DNA of 7,212 bases from an uncultured Flavobacterium sp. (GTDB lineage Bacteria; Bacteroidota; Bacteroidia; Flavobacteriales; Flavobacteriaceae). Of this stretch, positions 1 to 6,414 are shown in pieces (the stretch's first letter is position 1; each line of letters begins with the position of its first letter). The stretch is from NCBI GenBank assembly GCA_946479395.1, contig CAMLFV010000136.1:1-7212 (forward strand), read 5' to 3'. Under the pieces are notes generated by a model. The model had not been told where the DNA came from and ran no database searches. It saw nothing but the letters and a program-made list of their open reading frames with translations. The translations under genes were made by a program, and so were the position numbers.

Positions 1-98
1 TTTATGAGAACGAAATTTGTACATACCGCCATAACCCATCCGCCTTAATGCGGTGAAACCTTTTCCTTTTTGTTGCTCCTGCACCAAAAAGTATATAC

Positions 99-180
99 AG
101 CAATAGGCTTACCGTGTGGTAGCAGTGTGATAATCTGCTATACACAAAAGGCACCGCCGTATATAACGTACCTTATTGCT
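99..180. other. Structured inverted-repeat element of unknown identity
   Basis: An outer stem pairs 99-107 (AGCAATAGG) with 171-180 (CCTTATTGCT, one bulged base). Inside it, a long hairpin pairs 114-125 with 135-145: GTGT, a bulged G, then GTAGCAG against CTGCTATACAC, closing a 9-nt loop. The nested pairing suggests a structured RNA or a protein-binding palindrome, but I do not recognise the family and cannot tell which strand would be transcribed. The surrounding sequence (1-300) has no convincing ORF. Confidence 0.3.
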
Positions 181-301
181 TTGGCACTATATAATCAGGG
201 CATTTTAACTTATAAACTCGCACTTTAAAAGTATTGCCTTTATTTGTATTTTCCAAATTGGGGGTTGAAATAATTTGGTTGGGGTGTAGGGGCTTTAAAA
301 A

Positions 302-333
302 GGGAATAGGGAATGGGGAAGAAGGGAATAGGG
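302..333 (+). other. Five-tract G-run, possible G-quadruplex
   Basis: Five runs of three or four G lie at 302-304, 309-311, 315-318, 324-326 and 331-333, separated by 3-5 nt of A/T-rich sequence. This fits the usual G3+N1-7 quadruplex pattern on the plus strand. It could equally be a low-complexity purine repeat (GGGAATA-like units) of the kind found between genes. No function is claimed. Confidence 0.35.
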
Positions 334-411
334 AAGCTAGTTTATGGGGTTTTGATTGAAAGATGAGTTTGTTTGCGGCTCATTGGTAGATGCTAGAAAA
401 TTAAGCCTTAC

Positions 412-594
412 GATTTTTCTTTAACTTTTACCTTGATGTAAAAGTTACAAAAGATCAAGACTCTATTTTTTCAACGGTCAAATAAAGTCTTATTTCCTAA
501 AAGAAATAAACTCGAACAAGTTCTCAAACAGCATTTCTTTTTACGGAAATTTTGCCTATTTGACACTCGCTGAAAAACTAATGTCGGTTTTAAA
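412..594. repeat. Non-coding direct repeat, copy A
   Basis: This 183-bp stretch recurs at 988-1170 without indels and with about 9 mismatches. It starts with a 10-bp perfect hairpin (422-431 with 438-447, loop CTTGAT). It forms the left half of a larger block whose right half is the repeat at 834-898. No reading frame is preserved between the copies, so it is best seen as an intergenic repeat module. Confidence 0.85.
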
Positions 595-833
595 TCAGGA
601 GTGGTTCAGCATTGAGGTTTTGATTTGAAATTGAAAAAAGACTAGAAAATCAGCGGTATGAGGTATTAATCCAGAGCCGAAACACTGCATGAAGCGTAAG
701 CAGATCGGACAGCATAGCGAAATCGAAGATTCATGAATACATTATTATAAAATAACTAAAGATGAATACTTTTCGATCTGGTAGCTTTAAAAGTGAATTT
801 CGACCGATTAAAAGATCACCGCAATAAAACCAC

Positions 834-898
834 TTTTGGTACTTTTCGTGCTTGAAAAGTACAGAGAAACCTAATGTTTCAATTACGAATTATGGAGA
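834..898. repeat. Non-coding repeat with GTACTTTT hairpin, copy A
   Basis: A 65-bp stretch recurs at 1421-1485 with about 7 mismatches. It includes a perfect 9-bp hairpin (839-847 with 854-862). The 12-mer TTTTGGTACTTT at 834-845 is also found, in the opposite orientation, in both spacers between the guide RNA units (3749-3760 and 3977-3988). Confidence 0.8.
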
Positions 899-987
899 AT
901 GAAAATTGAAATATTTCTATTAGATTTTGATTGAAGGATGAGTTTATTGAAGCGAGATATAACTATTTGAAGAAAATTCAGCTCTGT

Positions 988-1170
988 GATTTTTCTTTAA
1001 CTTTTGTCTTGATACAAAAGTTACAAAAGATCAAGACTCTATTTTTTCAACGGTCAAATTAAGTCTCATTTCCTAAAAGAAATAAACTCGAACAAGTTCT
1101 CAAACAGCATTTCTTTTCACGGAAATTTTGCCTATTTGACACTCGCTGAAAAAATAATGCCGGTTTTAAA
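988..1170. repeat. Non-coding direct repeat, copy B
   Basis: This is the second copy of 412-594 at an offset of 576 bp. Its hairpin (998-1007 with 1014-1023, loop CTTGAT) differs from copy A at two neighbouring positions in the left arm. Both changes are compensated in the right arm (AC/GT becomes GT/AC), so pairing is preserved. Confidence 0.85.
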
Positions 1171-1420
1171 ATACGAGTTTGTTCAATATTTGAGTTTTGA
1201 TTAAGAATGAAATAGAGTAATTAGGAGTATCAAAGCGCCATTATCAGTAAAACGAGCGTTGACAAGTTGAAACCGTAAGGTTCACGGCTTCCAAGCTGTA
1301 AGATAAAGTATGGACGTAATTAAGCGCAAAATCATAAGGGAACGAAGTGACGTTTTTATGATTTAGCTTACAAAACGTAGTCGACCGTTTTAATGATGAG
1401 GCAAGATAAAAAAGAAAGAT

Positions 1421-1485
1421 TTTTGGTACTTTTTATCTTTAAAAAGTACAAAGAAACCGAATGTTTCAATTACGAATTATGGAGA
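1421..1485. repeat. Non-coding repeat with GTACTTTT hairpin, copy B
   Basis: This is the second copy of 834-898 at an offset of 587 bp. The hairpin pairs 1426-1434 with 1441-1449. Its top pair is T-A where copy A has C-G, again a paired change. Together with 988-1170 it completes the second unit of a tandem block of roughly 580 bp; the middle parts of the two units have diverged strongly. Confidence 0.8.
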
Positions 1486-1549
1486 TTTAGAATTGAAAGA
1501 GATCTTTTCACTCTGTTCAATATGACAAACTGTACGGAAACTAGATGCG

Positions 1550-1570
1550 ATGCTGCATCAGGTGCAGCAT
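1550..1570. repeat. Short perfect inverted repeat
   Basis: ATGCTGCA at 1550-1557 pairs with TGCAGCAT at 1563-1570 across a 5-nt loop. It lies about 110 bp upstream of the sigma gene, has no T-tract, and has no clear role. Confidence 0.45.
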
Positions 1571-1654
1571 GACAGCGTGTAGTGGCTGAAAAAATAATTT
1601 CGCTTTTAATACGCATTTATTTTATCGAGAAGATTTTTAGGACATAACAAATTG

Positions 1655-1660
1655 TATAAT
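1655..1660 (+). promoter_or_regulatory. Possible promoter -10/-7 element upstream of the sigma gene
   Basis: TATAAT lies 18 nt upstream of the ATG at 1678. It is the only promoter-like hexamer close to the sigma/dCas12f operon. There is no clear TTG-type -33 element at the expected spacing, so this is a weak call. Confidence 0.25.
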
Positions 1661-1677
1661 TTATAAATCACCCCATT

Positions 1678-1734
1678 ATGCCAGAAAGAAATTTTGAATT
1701 ATTGAAAAAAAGCGACCCCGCTGCTTTAGAATAA
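1678..1734 (+). pseudogene. Original N-terminus of the sigma factor, ended by an in-frame TAA
   Basis: Reading from ATG 1678 gives 18 residues, MPERNFELLKKSDPAALE, a typical start of a Bacteroidetes ECF sigma factor (region 2.1 lead-in with DPAAL). Codon 19 (1732-1734) is TAA. The same frame then continues without another stop as IHAQYNRRIFWLGRKIIDDE and on to 2457, so the family-like sequence spans the stop. A single base change in GAA, CAA or AAA would explain it. Without the stop the protein would be 259 aa. The possibilities are a nonsense mutation, a sequencing error, or natural restart downstream. Confidence 0.75.
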
Positions 1735-1767
1735 ATTCATGCCCAATACAACAGACGTATCTTTTGG

Positions 1768-2457
1768 TTGGGCAGAAAGATAATTGATGACGAATTTATT
1801 GTAGAAAATTTGGTACAGGATACTTTTTTAAAATTATGGGATTATCGTGATAAGATTGAAGATCCACTTCATATCCTTTTTTTCTTGCAATATGTTATGA
1901 AAATATCCTGTTATGCGCACCATGCAAAACCAAGAAACAAGTTTTTTAGAACAACCGTCAGCTCGTTTGAGAAGTATGAAAATTATCAGGACTATCTGGC
2001 AGGCTACGATCCTGCTGATGTGATTGAAAACTTAAAGAATCAGGACGAATATCAAAAAATGTTCGATGTGGTAACCAATGTACTGCCACTGATAAAGCCT
2101 GAAAGAAGACAGCTGATCAACCTATGTTTAAAATACGGATTTCAGTACAAAGCTATTGCGCAGGTAATGGGAAAGAGTACCACCGAAACCGTTAACGAGG
2201 TAAAACGGGCAATTGATGATATTAAGAAGATCGTTGAAGGACGTGCGACGTTTGAACGGAAACTGCAAAAGGTTAAACCTGAAACTGCGCAAAGCAAATT
2301 GAGTGACATACAAAGTCAGGTATTGCAGCTGCGTTGCGAAATGAACCGTTCATTCGCAGCAATAGCACGAGAACTAAACCTGTCACAGCAGGAAGTACAT
2401 GAAGAATTTATGGCGGCCTATAAATTCGCCCAACAAAATAAAATACATTCACTTTAA
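1768..2457 (+). CDS. ECF-type (sigma-E) RNA polymerase sigma factor linked to dCas12f; 5' end disrupted
   Basis: The open frame after the TAA at 1732 can begin at TTG 1768 and encodes 229 aa; no good ribosome site precedes it. Residues 5-24 carry the region-2 motif of ECF sigma factors (IIDDEFIVENLVQDTFLKLW), used to contact RNA polymerase. Residues 104-156 form a region-4 helix-turn-helix (LPLIKPERRQLINL then YKAIAQVMGKSTTETVNEVKRAI). An extra HTH-like segment follows at about 178-222 (IQSQVLQLRC then FAAIARELNLSQQEV), which ordinary two-domain ECF sigmas lack. Starting at TTG would remove part of region 2.1, so activity of this copy is uncertain. The gene lies 11 nt upstream of the dCas12f-like gene, on the same strand, with no anti-sigma gene beside it. 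By analogy with reported systems, it would be brought to promoters by the dCas12f-RNA complex rather than by its own -35 recognition; this is inference. Confidence 0.8.
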   Translation: MGRKIIDDEFIVENLVQDTFLKLWDYRDKIEDPLHILFFLQYVMKISCYAHHAKPRNKFFRTTVSSFEKYENYQDYLAGYDPADVIENLKNQDEYQKMFDVVTNVLPLIKPERRQLINLCLKYGFQYKAIAQVMGKSTTETVNEVKRAIDDIKKIVEGRATFERKLQKVKPETAQSKLSDIQSQVLQLRCEMNRSFAAIARELNLSQQEVHEEFMAAYKFAQQNKIHSL

Positions 2458-2468
2458 AAAATTTAGTA

Positions 2469-3566
2469 ATGGAAAAAGGTAAAATAAAACTCAGCCGGAA
2501 AATACAGCTTACCATTGACCTGCCAACAACAGAAGAAAGAAAAGAAGCGTGGGAAAAGCTCTACAGATGGCAGGACAGATGCGTGCGTGCCGCAAACTTT
2601 ATCATAAGCCACCTATATGTGCTGTCGATGATGAGAGATTTTTTCTACCTTTCGGAAGGGGTAAAGTACAAGCTGGCAGATGAAAAGAAAGAACCTAACG
2701 GTATCCTACAATTCTCACACTCTACTTGTACATACAAAGTAGCAAGCCAGCGTTTTAAAGGCGAAATACCCACCGATGTAATCAGTTGTCTTAATTATGA
2801 GCTGATCAACAGGTTCAACAGGAACTACATCGAATATGTTAAAGGTAACCGTTCTTTAGATAATTTCAAACCCAATACGGGTTTTCTTTTCGGAGTGCAC
2901 AGCTTGAGACGTTTGCAGTATAACGAGGAAAAAAAGGCATTTTGCTTCCGTTTGTTTAAAATTCCTTTCAAAACTTATTTGGGAAAAGGTTTTAACGATA
3001 AACACTTACTACTGCAACAGGTTATAGATGGTAAGGTGAAACTTTGTTCGTCGCGCGTAAAACTTGACAAGGGAAAGATCTTCTGGATGCCCGTATTTGA
3101 AATACCTAAAGAAGCACATTGCCTGAAACCCGATGTAGTAGCAGAAGCCTCTCTTTCTTTAGAGCATCCTATTTCTGTAAGGATTGGTAAGAACAGTATG
3201 CAGATTGGTAACAAAGAGGAGTTTTTACACCGTAGGCTGGCGATACAGGCTGCACAAAGCCGAACCAAAGCAGCGGTAAGCTATAGCAGGGGTGGTAACG
3301 GTAAGCAACGAAAATTAAAGGCGCTGGAAAGGTTTAAAGATATGGAAAATAATTATATTGCCAACCGACTGCATGAGTACAGCCGACGGTTGATTGATTT
3401 TTGTGTAAAACACCAGGCTGCAACGCTGGTACTGCTGGATATACAGCAAAATACTGACATAGCGAAAGAAGAACCATTCGTATTGCGCAATTGGAGCTAT
3501 TACGAACTGATGAGCAAGATAAAATACAAAGCCGAAAAGGCAGGTATTGAAGTTATTACCACCTAA
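2469..3566 (+). CDS. Nuclease-dead Cas12f/TnpB-like RNA-guided DNA-binding protein (dCas12f)
   Basis: This is a 365-aa protein with a Cas12f/TnpB fold pattern: an N-terminal beta strand (KLSRKIQLTID), a helical REC-like part (about 22-125), a wedge/beta part (about 140-215), then RuvC-like segments. RuvC-I should read like VDLGINxP but reads ASLSLEHP (227-234), so the catalytic Asp is Ser228. RuvC-II should read IVLEDL but reads LVLLDI (320-325), so the Glu is Leu323. The bridge-type segment KQRKLKALERFKDMENNYI (279-297) and the NWSYYELMSKIKYKAEKAGI block (341-360) are well preserved. The protein ends at EVITT, just where the zinc ribbon (CxxC) and RuvC-III Asp should follow, and no frame downstream encodes them. 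It should therefore bind guide RNA and DNA without cutting. It follows the sigma gene by 11 nt and precedes three guide-RNA-like units. No TnpA or IS ends are present. Confidence 0.88.
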   Translation: MEKGKIKLSRKIQLTIDLPTTEERKEAWEKLYRWQDRCVRAANFIISHLYVLSMMRDFFYLSEGVKYKLADEKKEPNGILQFSHSTCTYKVASQRFKGEIPTDVISCLNYELINRFNRNYIEYVKGNRSLDNFKPNTGFLFGVHSLRRLQYNEEKKAFCFRLFKIPFKTYLGKGFNDKHLLLQQVIDGKVKLCSSRVKLDKGKIFWMPVFEIPKEAHCLKPDVVAEASLSLEHPISVRIGKNSMQIGNKEEFLHRRLAIQAAQSRTKAAVSYSRGGNGKQRKLKALERFKDMENNYIANRLHEYSRRLIDFCVKHQAATLVLLDIQQNTDIAKEEPFVLRNWSYYELMSKIKYKAEKAGIEVITT

Positions 3567-3668
3567 AGAAATATTTTTTAGAGGGTGCTTATACACCCGT
3601 ACGGTGAGGTTACTACTTAACACTCACTGAATGCGTAAGCATATATAACCTAAATTTTAACGATTTTC
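3567..3668 (+). ncRNA. Putative dCas12f guide RNA, unit 1
   Basis: The unit begins at the dCas12f stop codon. The scaffold has three small hairpins: GGGTG/CACCC (3583-3587 with 3594-3598, loop CTTATA), GTGAG/CTCAC (3604-3608 with 3623-3627), and ATGC-GTAA-GCAT (3631-3642) with a GNRA-type loop. It ends in TATATAA at 3648. The next 20 nt, CCTAAATTTTAACGATTTTC (3649-3668), are the proposed guide, placed 3' as in Cas12f and TnpB RNAs. The scaffold/guide border is inferred from where unit 3 diverges from units 1 and 2. A small hairpin (3664-3685) follows and may end or trim the RNA. The start and ends are approximate. Confidence 0.7.
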
Positions 3669-3729
3669 TACTATAGAGTATAAAAACGGTTTGTTTTGAT
3701 AAAGTATATTGATATAGTGTGGATTTCAA

Positions 3730-3765
3730 AAGTTCGTTTTTTAAAATTAAAGTACCAAAATTCAC
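3730..3765. repeat. Inter-guide spacer repeat, copy 1
   Basis: These 36 nt recur at 3958-3993 with 2 mismatches, each copy lying some 25-75 nt upstream of the next guide RNA unit. The repeat contains AAAGTACCAAAA. It may carry promoter or processing signals for the following unit, or may simply reflect tandem duplication of a cassette of about 225 bp. Confidence 0.7.
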
Positions 3766-3787
3766 CAAGTGATCATTGATGCATGTT

Positions 3788-3889
3788 TGCAAAAAATAAT
3801 AGAGGGTTCTTATAAACCCATATGGTGAGGTTATTACTTAATACTCACTGAATGCATAAGCATATATAACCTAAATATTAAAAATTTTT
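3788..3889 (+). ncRNA. Putative dCas12f guide RNA, unit 2
   Basis: This is a copy of unit 1, shifted by 221 bp. Stem 1 is GGGTT/AACCC (3804-3808 with 3815-3819). Relative to unit 1 this is a compensated G-C to T-A change, which supports a folded RNA. The second stem and the ATGC-ATAA-GCAT hairpin are kept, and the scaffold ends in TATATAA at 3869. The proposed guide, CCTAAATATTAAAAATTTTT (3870-3889), matches guide 1 at 16 of 20 positions. A weak hairpin (3885-3892 with 3899-3906) follows at the same place as in unit 1. Confidence 0.7.
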
Positions 3890-3957
3890 TACCAAAGCGT
3901 AGAAAAATACTTTGTTTTGCAATATGCTACCATATGATTTAGAGTAGATTATTTAAG

Positions 3958-3993
3958 AAGTTTGTTTTTAAAAATTAAAGTACCAAAATTCAC
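3958..3993. repeat. Inter-guide spacer repeat, copy 2
   Basis: This copy of 3730-3765 differs at two positions. It lies between guide units 2 and 3, again with AAAGTACCAAAA (3977-3988). Confidence 0.7.
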
Positions 3994-4019
3994 TGAGTCA
4001 TAATTGAAGTGTGAATGGT

Positions 4020-4126
4020 TGGAAAAGATATTCGAGGGTACTTATACAACCGTGAGTTGAGGTTGTAGGCACACACTCACTGAATACGTAAGCATATATA
4101 AACGGAAATACCAACTAATTTTTTTT
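4020..4126 (+). ncRNA. Putative dCas12f guide RNA, unit 3
   Basis: This third copy is shifted by 232 bp from unit 2 and is more diverged. Stem 1 (GGGTA...CAACC) and the last hairpin (ATAC-GTAA-GCAT) carry mismatches, while CTCACTGAAT and AAGCATATATAA are intact. The sequence after the scaffold, ACGGAAATACCAACTAATTT (4102-4121), is unlike guides 1 and 2, so it should address a different target. An eight-T run (4119-4126) may end transcription just after the guide. The scaffold mismatches leave open whether dCas12f still binds this RNA well. Confidence 0.6.
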
Positions 4127-4199: not shown

Positions 4200-5150
4200 C
4201 TATTTCTTCTCTGGTGTTTCGTTGATAACGCGGATAGGTGCTGCAGCAAACGGATTATTAAACCCACCTTCGTAAATGGCTTTTTTAATTTCGTCTTGTA
4301 TTTCAAAGTTCAACGAACCAAAATCTGCTTTTGCAGCCCAAGCGCGAACGGTTAAAACAACACCACTTGCAGCTAATTCTTTTACAAAAATTTCTGGTTT
4401 TGGATCTTGTAAAACTCGGCTATCGGTAGCTAATTTGCTTTCTATTGCCTGTTGTACTTTTTGAATATTATCTGCGTAGCTTACGGTTAAAGCAAATTCT
4501 ATTCTGCGTTTTGATATTTTCGAGAAATTTCTAATCACAGAATTTGCCAAAGCACCATTCGGACTAAAAACTTTTATTCCTTGTGCGTTGTTTAAAGTTG
4601 TGTACAACAAATCGATTTTTTCTACTGTTCCATCGGTTCCGGCTGAGTTTTCTATGTAATCGCCTACTTCAAACGGACGGAATAATAAAATCAACACGCC
4701 GCCTGCAAAGTTTGATAATGATCCTTGTAATGCCAAACCTGCTGCTAAGACCAATCCTGATAATGCTCCTAAAATAGCGGTTGTTTGAAAACCAAGGTTT
4801 CCTGCTACCGATAAAATCAATAAAGCATACAAAACAAATTTGATGATGGACATTAAGAAGCCTCTTAATGACATATCCACGTTTCGTTTTTCAAATCGTT
4901 TGCTGATGATCTTTAAAAGGGTACGTATTACGAATAGACCAATGATTAAGGCTAGTATCGCAGCAATTATTGACGGAATGGCATCTAATAACTTTGCAAT
5001 CGTATTTTCTATCATATTAGAAAAAGCGGTTACTTGCTCTGCAATACCATCTTTTACATTTTCAGGCTTTACTGCGTTCAGTAATTCTTCTTTTTCTTTT
5101 GCTAACGAAATTGTGTCTTTTACAACGGTAGCTAATGAATCTTTTTTCAT
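4200..5150 (-). CDS. mscS: MscS-family small-conductance mechanosensitive ion channel
   Basis: The 316-aa inner-membrane channel opens under membrane tension to release solutes during hypo-osmotic shock. An N-terminal extension of about 50 residues precedes three membrane segments at about 59-79, 98-117 and 124-148. The third is the pore helix and carries the MscS signature GLALQGSLSNFAGG (138-151), followed by FRPFEVGDYI (157-166). The beta domain shows FSPNGALANSVIRNFS (195-210), the counterpart of the IPNG segment of E. coli MscS. The C-terminal alpha/beta vestibule domain runs to about 308. The length is close to E. coli MscS (286 aa) apart from the N-terminal extension. ATG 5150 is the natural start. 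The gene appears to be transcribed alone, between two terminators, and is not obviously tied to the RNA-guided system. Confidence 0.95.
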   Translation of the reverse strand: MKKDSLATVVKDTISLAKEKEELLNAVKPENVKDGIAEQVTAFSNMIENTIAKLLDAIPSIIAAILALIIGLFVIRTLLKIISKRFEKRNVDMSLRGFLMSIIKFVLYALLILSVAGNLGFQTTAILGALSGLVLAAGLALQGSLSNFAGGVLILLFRPFEVGDYIENSAGTDGTVEKIDLLYTTLNNAQGIKVFSPNGALANSVIRNFSKISKRRIEFALTVSYADNIQKVQQAIESKLATDSRVLQDPKPEIFVKELAASGVVLTVRAWAAKADFGSLNFEIQDEIKKAIYEGGFNNPFAAAPIRVINETPEKK

Positions 5151-5220: not shown

Positions 5221-6414
5221 TTAGATCGCCAATTTTTTAGAAATTGTTTTTGGAACCGCGTTTTTATGTAACATAATAGCTGTAGCCTTGTATTTCATAA
5301 ATTCTTTGGTCATGTACATGTATCCTTTGTAATCGTTAGATAATCCCCAAGAATTTTTCACGATATAATACTCTTTACCGTTTTGGTCTTTCGCAACACC
5401 AGTAATGTGCATTCCGTGATCATCAGTCGTTTCGTAATTGTCAAACGCTTTTTGGCGGTCGTCTTCCGTAACTTTTTTTTCTGCTTTTGGACCGTTGAAC
5501 ATATCTGCTTTTTGTTCAGTTGTCATTTGAGCGAAATCAATTTCTGGAACAAAAGCCACACCGTTTTTCCAGCTGAAACCTTTTTCAGAAACATCACCAG
5601 CCCAAGCAACCGTGTATCCGTTTTTCAAAGCATTATCAACCGTTTCAACCAATTCGTCCATTTTTACGTTGTAAACTTGATCAAACGACCAGTTATCAGG
5701 AACCAATAAAGTGAATTTAGTATAATAAGGATATTCTTTTAAAGAAGAAATTTCTACATAATCTTCTGCTTTTACACCCACAACCTGGTCTGCAAACGTT
5801 TTAGGAGTGTATTTTTTACCTTCGTACGTGAATTCTGTCGGAGCTTCACCTAAATACGTATCAATAACCGAAGTATAAGCTTTAACCCAGTTTTCTGACA
5901 ATTTATCGTTTTTAATAACCGATGCCAAAACAGACTCGCTCATTTTACTCATTTCAGAGAAATTGTTACGTGTTTGTCCTTCTTGTAAACCGGTATAAGC
6001 GGATCTTGGTACTGTACCGTATTTTTTGTACATATTCATTACATCGTGGAACGCACCGCCTTCGCCCAACGTAACCGCACCATGCATTTTTACATACATT
6101 TTACCTTTTTCTACATACGCATTACGCGCTGTAAAGATTTGAGCCAATTCTACAGGTTTTTTACCCATGCGAATCATTTCAGATTCAATGAATGAATTTC
6201 CTGAATAAGACCAGCAAGTTCCAGATGAACCTTGATCTTTAACCGAAGTGTTTTCTAAGTTAATTACATCGGTAAATGTAAAATGATCTTTACTGTTGGC
6301 ACTTTGGTTTGCCTTTACCTTATTCATTAAATCGTCTTGTGCCGATACATTTGAAGTTGCAGCTAAAGTAATTAATACCGCCGCAAATAATGGTTTTAAT
6401 TTTAAACGAAACAT
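5221..6414 (-). CDS. Secreted C1B family cysteine peptidase (aminopeptidase C/bleomycin hydrolase-like)
   Basis: The 397-aa papain-fold peptidase has a Sec signal peptide: a basic start MFRLKLK, a hydrophobic core at 9-20, and probable cleavage after NVSA at 25. This places it in the periplasm or outside the cell, unlike the cytoplasmic PepC and bleomycin hydrolase it resembles. The active-site residues are visible: Gln61 and Cys67 in VKDQGSSGTCWSY, His333 in DDHGMHITG, and Asn354 in VKNSWG. The long insertion between Cys and His and the NSWG block fit the C1B subfamily. The substrate is unknown; aminopeptidase or peptide-trimming activity is the family expectation. The start ATG 6414 directly precedes the signal peptide. 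The gene is transcribed alone, divergently from the small protein at 6578, with its own terminator. Confidence 0.93.
   Translation of the reverse strand: MFRLKLKPLFAAVLITLAATSNVSAQDDLMNKVKANQSANSKDHFTFTDVINLENTSVKDQGSSGTCWSYSGNSFIESEMIRMGKKPVELAQIFTARNAYVEKGKMYVKMHGAVTLGEGGAFHDVMNMYKKYGTVPRSAYTGLQEGQTRNNFSEMSKMSESVLASVIKNDKLSENWVKAYTSVIDTYLGEAPTEFTYEGKKYTPKTFADQVVGVKAEDYVEISSLKEYPYYTKFTLLVPDNWSFDQVYNVKMDELVETVDNALKNGYTVAWAGDVSEKGFSWKNGVAFVPEIDFAQMTTEQKADMFNGPKAEKKVTEDDRQKAFDNYETTDDHGMHITGVAKDQNGKEYYIVKNSWGLSNDYKGYMYMTKEFMKYKATAIMLHKNAVPKTISKKLAI

Follow-up and report, generated by a model that had tools for sequence, protein, structure and literature searches.

A 7,212-nucleotide (nt) stretch of DNA from an uncultured Flavobacterium sp. 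(GenBank assembly GCA_946479395.1, contig CAMLFV010000136.1; hereafter the window) very probably carries a locus homologous to the dCas12f-sigmaE systems, in which a sigma factor, its gene here bearing a premature stop codon, a nuclease-dead Cas12f-like protein (dCas12f) and three guide-RNA-like cassettes would jointly direct RNA polymerase to transcription starts chosen by a guide match. The coding part is a single forward operon (1678-3566), after which three repeated scaffolds follow within 3579-4101 (Table 1). RNA-guided transcription by dCas12f and sigmaE is reportedly the subject of a preprint by Hoffmann, Sternberg and colleagues. Recent work on Bacteroidetes is said to describe linked dCas12f and sigma-E proteins in which a guide RNA recruits RNA polymerase, the start distance is set by the R-loop and the target-adjacent motif (TAM) is a minimal 5'-G.

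Table 1. Features of the window (positions counted from its first nucleotide)
Feature	Position	Strand	Basis or remark
Extracytoplasmic function (ECF) sigma gene, RpoE-type, interrupted	1678..2457	+	in-frame TAA 1732-1734 (codon 19)
Remaining open sigma frame, 229 aa from TTG	1768..2457	+	9n9q_C match; Sigma70_r4 domain
Nuclease-dead, C-terminally short Cas12f-like protein, 365 aa	2469..3566	+	PDB 9n9c, E 7.2e-157, residues 2-363
Guide RNA scaffold 1	3579..3648	+	17/17 consensus pairs; fold z -3.8
Predicted guide 1, CTAAATTTTAACGATT	3650..3665	+	register inferred from relatives' guides and leader matches
Guide RNA scaffold 2	3800..3869	+	17/17 consensus pairs; fold z -3.1
Predicted guide 2, CTAAATATTAAAAATT	3871..3886	+	register as for guide 1
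Guide RNA scaffold 3, degenerate	4032..4101	+	13/17 consensus pairs; fold z -0.09
Predicted guide 3, CGGAAATACCAACTAA	4103..4118	+	eight T follow (4119-4126)
Long non-coding stretch 5' of sigma	1..1677	+	no open reading frame (ORF) of 60 aa or more before 1768 on either strand
Two 208-nt repeat copies	395-602, 971-1178		92% identity, 576 nt apart
MscS-type channel gene	4200-5150	opposite to operon	
C1-family peptidase gene	5221-6414	opposite to operon	

A dead Cas12f-like protein, a linked sigma gene and guide scaffolds

Residues 2-363 of the 365-residue protein match a Protein Data Bank (PDB) chain named nuclease-deactivated Cas12f (entries 9n9c, 9n9m, 9n9o and 9n9q; E-value 7.2e-157), and in entry 9n9q this chain occurs together with RpoE. 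When a weak AlphaFold model of the protein (pLDDT, predicted local distance difference test, 60.8) was used as the Foldseek query, the top ranks went to 9n9m (62% identity), titled 'dCas12f-gRNA-DNA complex (partial R-Loop)', and to 9n9c, titled 'dCas12f-gRNA complex'. The guided_TnpB profile also matched (5.5e-16), a value below its curated cut-off. The likeness to Cas12f or TnpB claimed in an initial annotation of this DNA is borne out by these matches.

The same annotation had described the protein as catalytically dead and C-terminally shortened, and both descriptions agree with the alignments. The RuvC-I aspartate of the active Cas12f of PDB 9nzo aligns with Ser228 and a glutamate of that protein aligns with residue 323; we take this Asp and this Glu to be catalytic residues. 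Serine occupies the first position in all 29 aligned proteins, and the second is leucine in 21, methionine in 6 and valine in 2, never glutamate. The protein also ends 60-90 residues short of the active Cas12f proteins listed. Hence, as judged from the alignment, the Cas12f-like protein has lost its DNA-cutting residues. It is homologous to active Cas12f and TnpB proteins (PDB 9nzo and 8hr5; NF040570) by sequence and by fold search, most strongly on the RuvC side, whereas the replaced RuvC Asp and Glu and the missing C-terminal end set it apart from them.

The sigma stop codon ends at 2457 and the dCas12f ATG begins at 2469, which agrees with the annotated distance of 11 nt. The 229-residue sigma product left open downstream of the interruption matches residues 31-253 of chain 9n9q_C, named RpoE (E 3.4e-69). 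A genome collection was scanned with the 29-row dCas12f alignment. Of the 275 places found, the best 80, which make up 79 loci (L numbers below; P numbers are proteins), were retained, with dCas12f the sole criterion for selection. All 79 loci have a sigma match upstream of dCas12f and in the same orientation, so the expected co-occurrence of the two genes in relatives was indeed found. The sigma match ends within 60 nt of the dCas12f match in 75 loci and at 102-467 nt in the other four (L020, L042, L056 and L062). The record titles name Paenimyroides, Myroides, Empedobacter, Salegentibacter, Allomuricauda, Leeuwenhoekiella and others, Echinicola among them, and some relatives have several loci per genome (three in P. 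baculatum, four in E. tilapiae).

The three structured cassettes with different 3' tails of the initial annotation could be located and traced through the relatives. The scaffold copies are spaced 221-232 nt apart, and each leads into a tail of its own that contains a T-rich stretch. A profile made of the window's three copies alone found 123 cassettes (E <= 1e-3) in 80 of 80 sources, namely the window and the 79 loci. The nearest cassette follows the dCas12f match within 25 nt in 65 of the 79 loci, within 40 nt in 74 and at 603 nt at most, and 24 loci have more than one cassette. The 50 copies that we selected from the 123 and aligned show covariation: 97.8% of cells pair in a three-stem structure, 6 of its 17 pairs have changed on both sides, and none of 500 shuffles reached the real alignment in any of five measures. 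Within the window, the pair of columns 10-17 is GC in scaffold 1 and TA in scaffold 2.

Two side observations concern cassettes of relatives. Guide cassettes also occur 5-8 kb from the dCas12f gene (L042:16154-16219, L040:18442-18911 and L074:18806-18872). In the Leeuwenhoekiella loci L048, L057, L066, L071 and L072 the scaffold is followed by a common tail, CCCTTCCCT.AAAGATTAA.., which may be a terminator rather than a guide.

The window resembles the dCas12f-sigmaE systems (PDB 9n9c, 9n9m, 9n9o and 9n9q) in its 365-residue dead Cas12f with a linked RpoE-type sigma factor and in a guide scaffold that begins shortly past the dCas12f stop, as in the relatives' loci. It is unlike them in its interrupted sigma frame, in its three tandem cassettes and in AT-rich guides that miss the leader arm, described below, that many relatives' guides match. 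Two other assignments were rejected. Type V-F CRISPR-Cas comprises a short-repeat CRISPR array and an active nuclease, and is ruled out by three long scaffolds at the above spacing together with the replaced catalytic residues; no short regular repeats were seen among the 20 of 31 direct-repeat families listed. TldR is a dead TnpB protein with a guide and no sigma partner, which does not fit a locus that has a sigma gene of its own and whose 79 relatives all have one upstream.

A structured leader and the conserved guide of relatives

A guide starting GCGTGGG is found in a cassette of 46 of the 79 loci. At up to 3 mismatches this 18-nt guide had matches in 12 of 12 genomes, 56 in total with own cassettes counted, versus 13 for the reversed pattern. 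The matches outside cassettes lie upstream of the locus's own sigma gene and elsewhere in the genome, and many are surrounded by a conserved element (51 distinct core hits among the loci; those in L096, L108 and L118 lack the 5' half). The element lies within 1.6 kb upstream of sigma in 36 of the 79 loci and 2.4-3.5 kb upstream in L001-L004.

The element reads as a leader RNA some 200 nt long (for example L016:8890-9108 and 38 further copies), in which the loop of a 5' domain kisses the apical loop of a terminator-like hairpin. In the 39 copies that we selected for alignment out of 51, 97.9% of cells pair, 12 of 42 pairs have changed on both sides and none of 500 shuffles scored as high; slid versions of the structure pair in only 32-42%. 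The kissing strands are CTGGTA/TACCAG in 33 copies and CTGGCA/TGCCAG in 6, and L208 and L209 have CTGCCA/TGGCAG. As the copies were collected with a pattern that covered the second strand only, the agreement of the first strand was not built in. A run of TTTT falls within 85 nt after the core in 51 of 51 copies, a loose test in AT-rich DNA. The 5' strand of the leader might also pair with the guide-like arm of the hairpin to form an antiterminator (98.6% of cells pair, with weak covariation). Seven loci with one leader copy each were searched against Rfam at E up to 1 and had no match.

Same-strand comparisons were made between the guides of relatives and the guide-like arm of the hairpin. Among the 36 close-leader loci, 16 have at most 3 of 16 positions mismatched and 20 at most 4, the arm of L075 being counted as 3 mismatches. 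For those 16 loci, as well as for L043 and L063, no shuffled guide out of 100 matched as well. In 16 of the 36 loci the arm match is on the coding strand, roughly 165-230 bp ahead of sigma. The base before the leader match was scored as G in 19 of 20 relatives' loci, and the twentieth, L075, in fact has G as well; since this G is a structural base of the leader too, it is weak evidence for a 5'-G motif. As a separate and suggestive observation, the third guide of L002, which is AT-rich, has a 1-mismatch site at L002:5968, preceded by GG, about 300 nt past the leader and 3.3 kb upstream of sigma.

What lies on either side of the leader was also recorded. Downstream is either the sigma-dCas12f operon or, at 370-780 nt, a TonB-plug receptor some 1000 residues long, and some copies have other things downstream. 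The plug domain was found in 12 of 12 receptors tested, which were chosen from copies with a long downstream ORF and hence give no rate. A small divergent ORF (80-175 aa) starts 140-320 nt upstream of 40 of the 51 copies. Pfam searches on four of the small divergent proteins gave a helix-turn-helix above cut-off in three, and that of L005, which belongs to another leader type, fell below. A sigma-A-like promoter pattern, based on what we take to be the sigma-A consensus, precedes 5 of 51 copies versus 0.6% of random 130-nt stretches.

Across 199 genomes from a single family, 35 contain the 14-base leader core (2 contain the reversed pattern), 9 have a close dCas12f (E <= 1e-60) and 8 have both (Fisher P 3.5e-6). 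We inspected 20 regions with 21 core places. The leader is absent from two of these regions (L153 and L155), and the other 18 contain 19 copies, including four weaker ones (E about 1e-19 to 1e-20). Because some core places were not the leader, 35 is an upper figure. The leader exists without a close dCas12f, as 17 of the inspected regions come from ten genomes that lack one, and dCas12f systems seem to have attached themselves to the leader. A side observation concerns L096, L108 and L118, all from one genome, where an IS110-family transposase gene (Pfam-tested in L108) lies about 305 nt from the leader core. The three share the same end of about 30 nt immediately ahead of the guide-like arm, which is what insertion of the transposable element at one set position of the leader would look like.

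By kinship with the solved complexes, dCas12f would bind the cassette RNAs, open a guide-matched R-loop beside a 5'-G and hold the sigma factor such that RNA polymerase starts a fixed distance downstream. In many relatives the natural guide, which resembles one arm of the leader's terminator-like hairpin, would act ahead of the system's own sigma gene and of TonB-dependent receptor genes, where initiation past the arm would skip the terminator and switch on both the system itself and nutrient uptake. The start reportedly lies about 46 nt from the TAM; if that distance is valid, the first transcribed base would lie close to where the 3' arm of the hairpin begins and the RNA could therefore not form the terminator. 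A broader scenario is plausible, if somewhat short of probable: dCas12f-sigmaE systems may have plugged themselves into a leader family that is flanked by a divergent small helix-turn-helix gene on one side and by either a SusC-type receptor or the sigma-dCas12f operon on the opposite side, so that one guide, copying the 5' arm, addresses many leaders and switches on the system together with a set of receptors, and the window's clade may have left that target for a re-aimed multi-guide array.

The interrupted sigma frame and competing explanations

Several observations weigh against reading the window as a dCas12f-sigmaE system. An uninterrupted sigma frame, needed for a working copy and not for kinship, is absent from the sequence as given. 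The AlphaFold model of dCas12f is poor and was usable for hit titles only. Scaffold 3 breaks 4 of 17 consensus pairs; none of the 50 aligned copies keeps fewer pairs, and the third cassette of L001 keeps equally few. Taken alone, scaffold 3 folds like shuffles (z -0.09; 78 of 200 shuffles equally good). None of the three guides has a match at up to 2 mismatches elsewhere in the window. The search of five clade genomes covered guide 3, guides 1 and 2 being too AT-rich, and at up to 3 mismatches its matches did not exceed those of the reversed-pattern control; the three that we inspected all lie within ORFs. Among the relatives, 20 of the 36 close-leader loci fail at 3 mismatches and 16 at 4, Allomuricauda taeanensis L008 included, and L078, which lacks that leader, has an AT-rich match equalled by none of 100 shuffles.

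Guides of two other loci were searched in the same genomes at the same threshold. That of L005 did not exceed its reversed-pattern control, and that of L049 had 18 matches versus 14 in the control. Of 16 matched loci inspected, 2 are cassettes, 13 lie inside open frames and one, L184, has no match at up to 2 mismatches. By eye, the window's AT-rich guides resemble neither the arm of this leader nor that of the second leader type described below. The annotated system with three guides stands as to its kind, a dCas12f-sigmaE-guide RNA locus supported by the matches to solved chains, the linkage and the scaffold, and fails as to three equal guides, scaffold 3 being degenerate.

The annotated cassette is not complete either. 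From the ATG at 1678 the sigma frame runs for 18 codons to a TAA at 1732-1734 and is open afterwards to 2457. The first in-frame start listed past the stop is the TTG at 1768, and the 229-residue product from it loses the first 30 residues. By eye, six relatives shown in the alignment (P0121-P0124, P0136 and P0140) have lysine at the stop position, and P0121, whose sigma is 96% identical to that of the window, is uninterrupted. As read, this sigma copy would yield nothing or a product from the TTG shorter by about 30 residues, and the activity of this copy is therefore doubtful unless the stop is a sequencing error.

Damaged sigma genes also occur among the 79 loci. A stop lies inside the best sigma match in L021 and L072, the first sigma residues of L004 are out of frame, the L056 sigma is split near its end with the last residues in a separate piece, and those of L030 and L069 are truncated by a contig end. 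In L004 (9181-9340), from Paenimyroides ummariense, the frame changes at a run of A, and P0161 from the same species is listed as 220 aa.

The window could thus hold a decaying copy that has lost its sigma factor and is losing its third cassette, one that starts no transcription or borrows sigma from a second copy in the genome. We regard this as a serious possibility that stays below probable. The stop at codon 19, the damaged sigma genes of the clade member L004 and of L056, the 13 of 17 pairs left in scaffold 3 and in the third cassette of L001, and the several loci per genome of P. baculatum and E. tilapiae all fit decay. It accords poorly with a dCas12f frame that is intact and 98% identical to P0001, with scaffolds 1 and 2 that keep 17 of 17 pairs while differing at one pair on both sides, and with the remainder of the sigma frame, which is open and 96% identical to that of an uninterrupted relative.

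An equally serious possibility, again below probable, is an intact system whose apparent stop arose during sequencing or assembly. The lysine found at that codon in the six relatives, the 96%-identical P0121 among them, points this way, as would a metagenomic origin of the contig. Sequencing errors are common at homopolymer runs, however, and the stop is not at one; broken sigma frames also occur in other assemblies (L004 and L056).

A third alternative, that dCas12f without its sigma factor serves as an RNA-guided repressor, we consider quite unlikely. An intact dCas12f with two intact scaffolds beside an interrupted sigma gene would fit such a repressor, and TldR offers a precedent, as PMC13418256 describes it as a TnpB-like, nuclease-dead, RNA-guided repressor. 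The two share a dead protein of the TnpB/Cas12 type acting as an RNA-guided transcription factor, but TldR represses, whereas all 79 loci of the present kind have a linked sigma gene. The closest solved relative moreover shares its entry with RpoE, and the guide matches of 16 of 36 loci, by their strand and their distance before sigma, are those expected for starting rather than blocking transcription.

Weakest, and very improbable, is the idea that the guide of relatives pairs with the RNA of the 3' arm of the leader terminator and so prevents termination with no DNA targeting: the guide does resemble the strand that pairs with the 3' arm, but its mean mismatch is 2.2 of 16 to the 5' arm versus 7.3 to the perfect antisense of the 3' arm (19 of 31 loci, those with at most 4 guide-leader mismatches and thus chosen by the first measure; L014 entered through the guide of a second nearby locus), and the idea does not apply to the window's guides. 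The better fit to the DNA arm, in loci picked by that measure, favours DNA targeting in the relatives.

Surroundings of the operon and what the locus may mean

The operon stands in surroundings shared with Paenimyroides baculatum L005, which has the same neighbours (MscS and C1 peptidase) and the same upstream non-coding DNA. Positions 1-636 are 81% identical to L005 and 90% to L006, and positions 1-302 are 84% identical to L007. The two 208-nt repeats sit in non-coding DNA that is conserved yet reshuffled among Paenimyroides and Myroides loci. Within the operon the nearest dCas12f among the loci is that of L001/L002 (77-78%; 77% to L002), which also have tandem cassettes. The sigma gene is 80% identical to that of L005 over its first 557 nt and, as a whole, 75-76% identical to those of L001/L002. 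As dCas12f is only 70% identical to that of L005 (third codon positions 56%) while the C1 peptidase is 98% identical (84%), the operon looks like a mosaic of two clade members, judging from identities rather than from a tree.

A second type of leader is present in L005 (7660-7950), L006, L007, L049 and L054, with further copies in L224, L220, L221, L217, L222 and L218. All five of the former carry a sigma-A-like promoter pattern, TTG-N17-21-TANNTTTG, and the loop strands CGACCAAA/TTTGGTCG could, by eye, kiss likewise. In the alignment the window begins about 100 nt past the place of this leader, and the window's genome probably has it upstream as well.

Rfam had no match in the window at gathering thresholds, and the patterns used had none in viral contigs. 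Plasmids and phages gave distant relatives only (73 records, of which the 20 listed are 22-27% identical, and 2 records at 23-25%). A literature search, beyond whose reach lay most subscription journals and bioRxiv and which was little aimed at the leader, found neither dCas12f-sigma systems nor the leader.

Taken as a dCas12f-sigmaE locus, the window belongs to a known kind of system, which gains through it a multi-guide member whose sigma gene is broken; in the relatives, the link of guide and leader may be new biology. The field is young, and it is the natural targets that decide what RNA-guided transcription-start systems are for. For many members the leader is a testable natural target, supported by covariation and found before TonB-dependent receptors even in genomes in which no close dCas12f turned up. 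If true, the link would account for how one short guide could govern a regulon, and for the system's own place behind the same leader.

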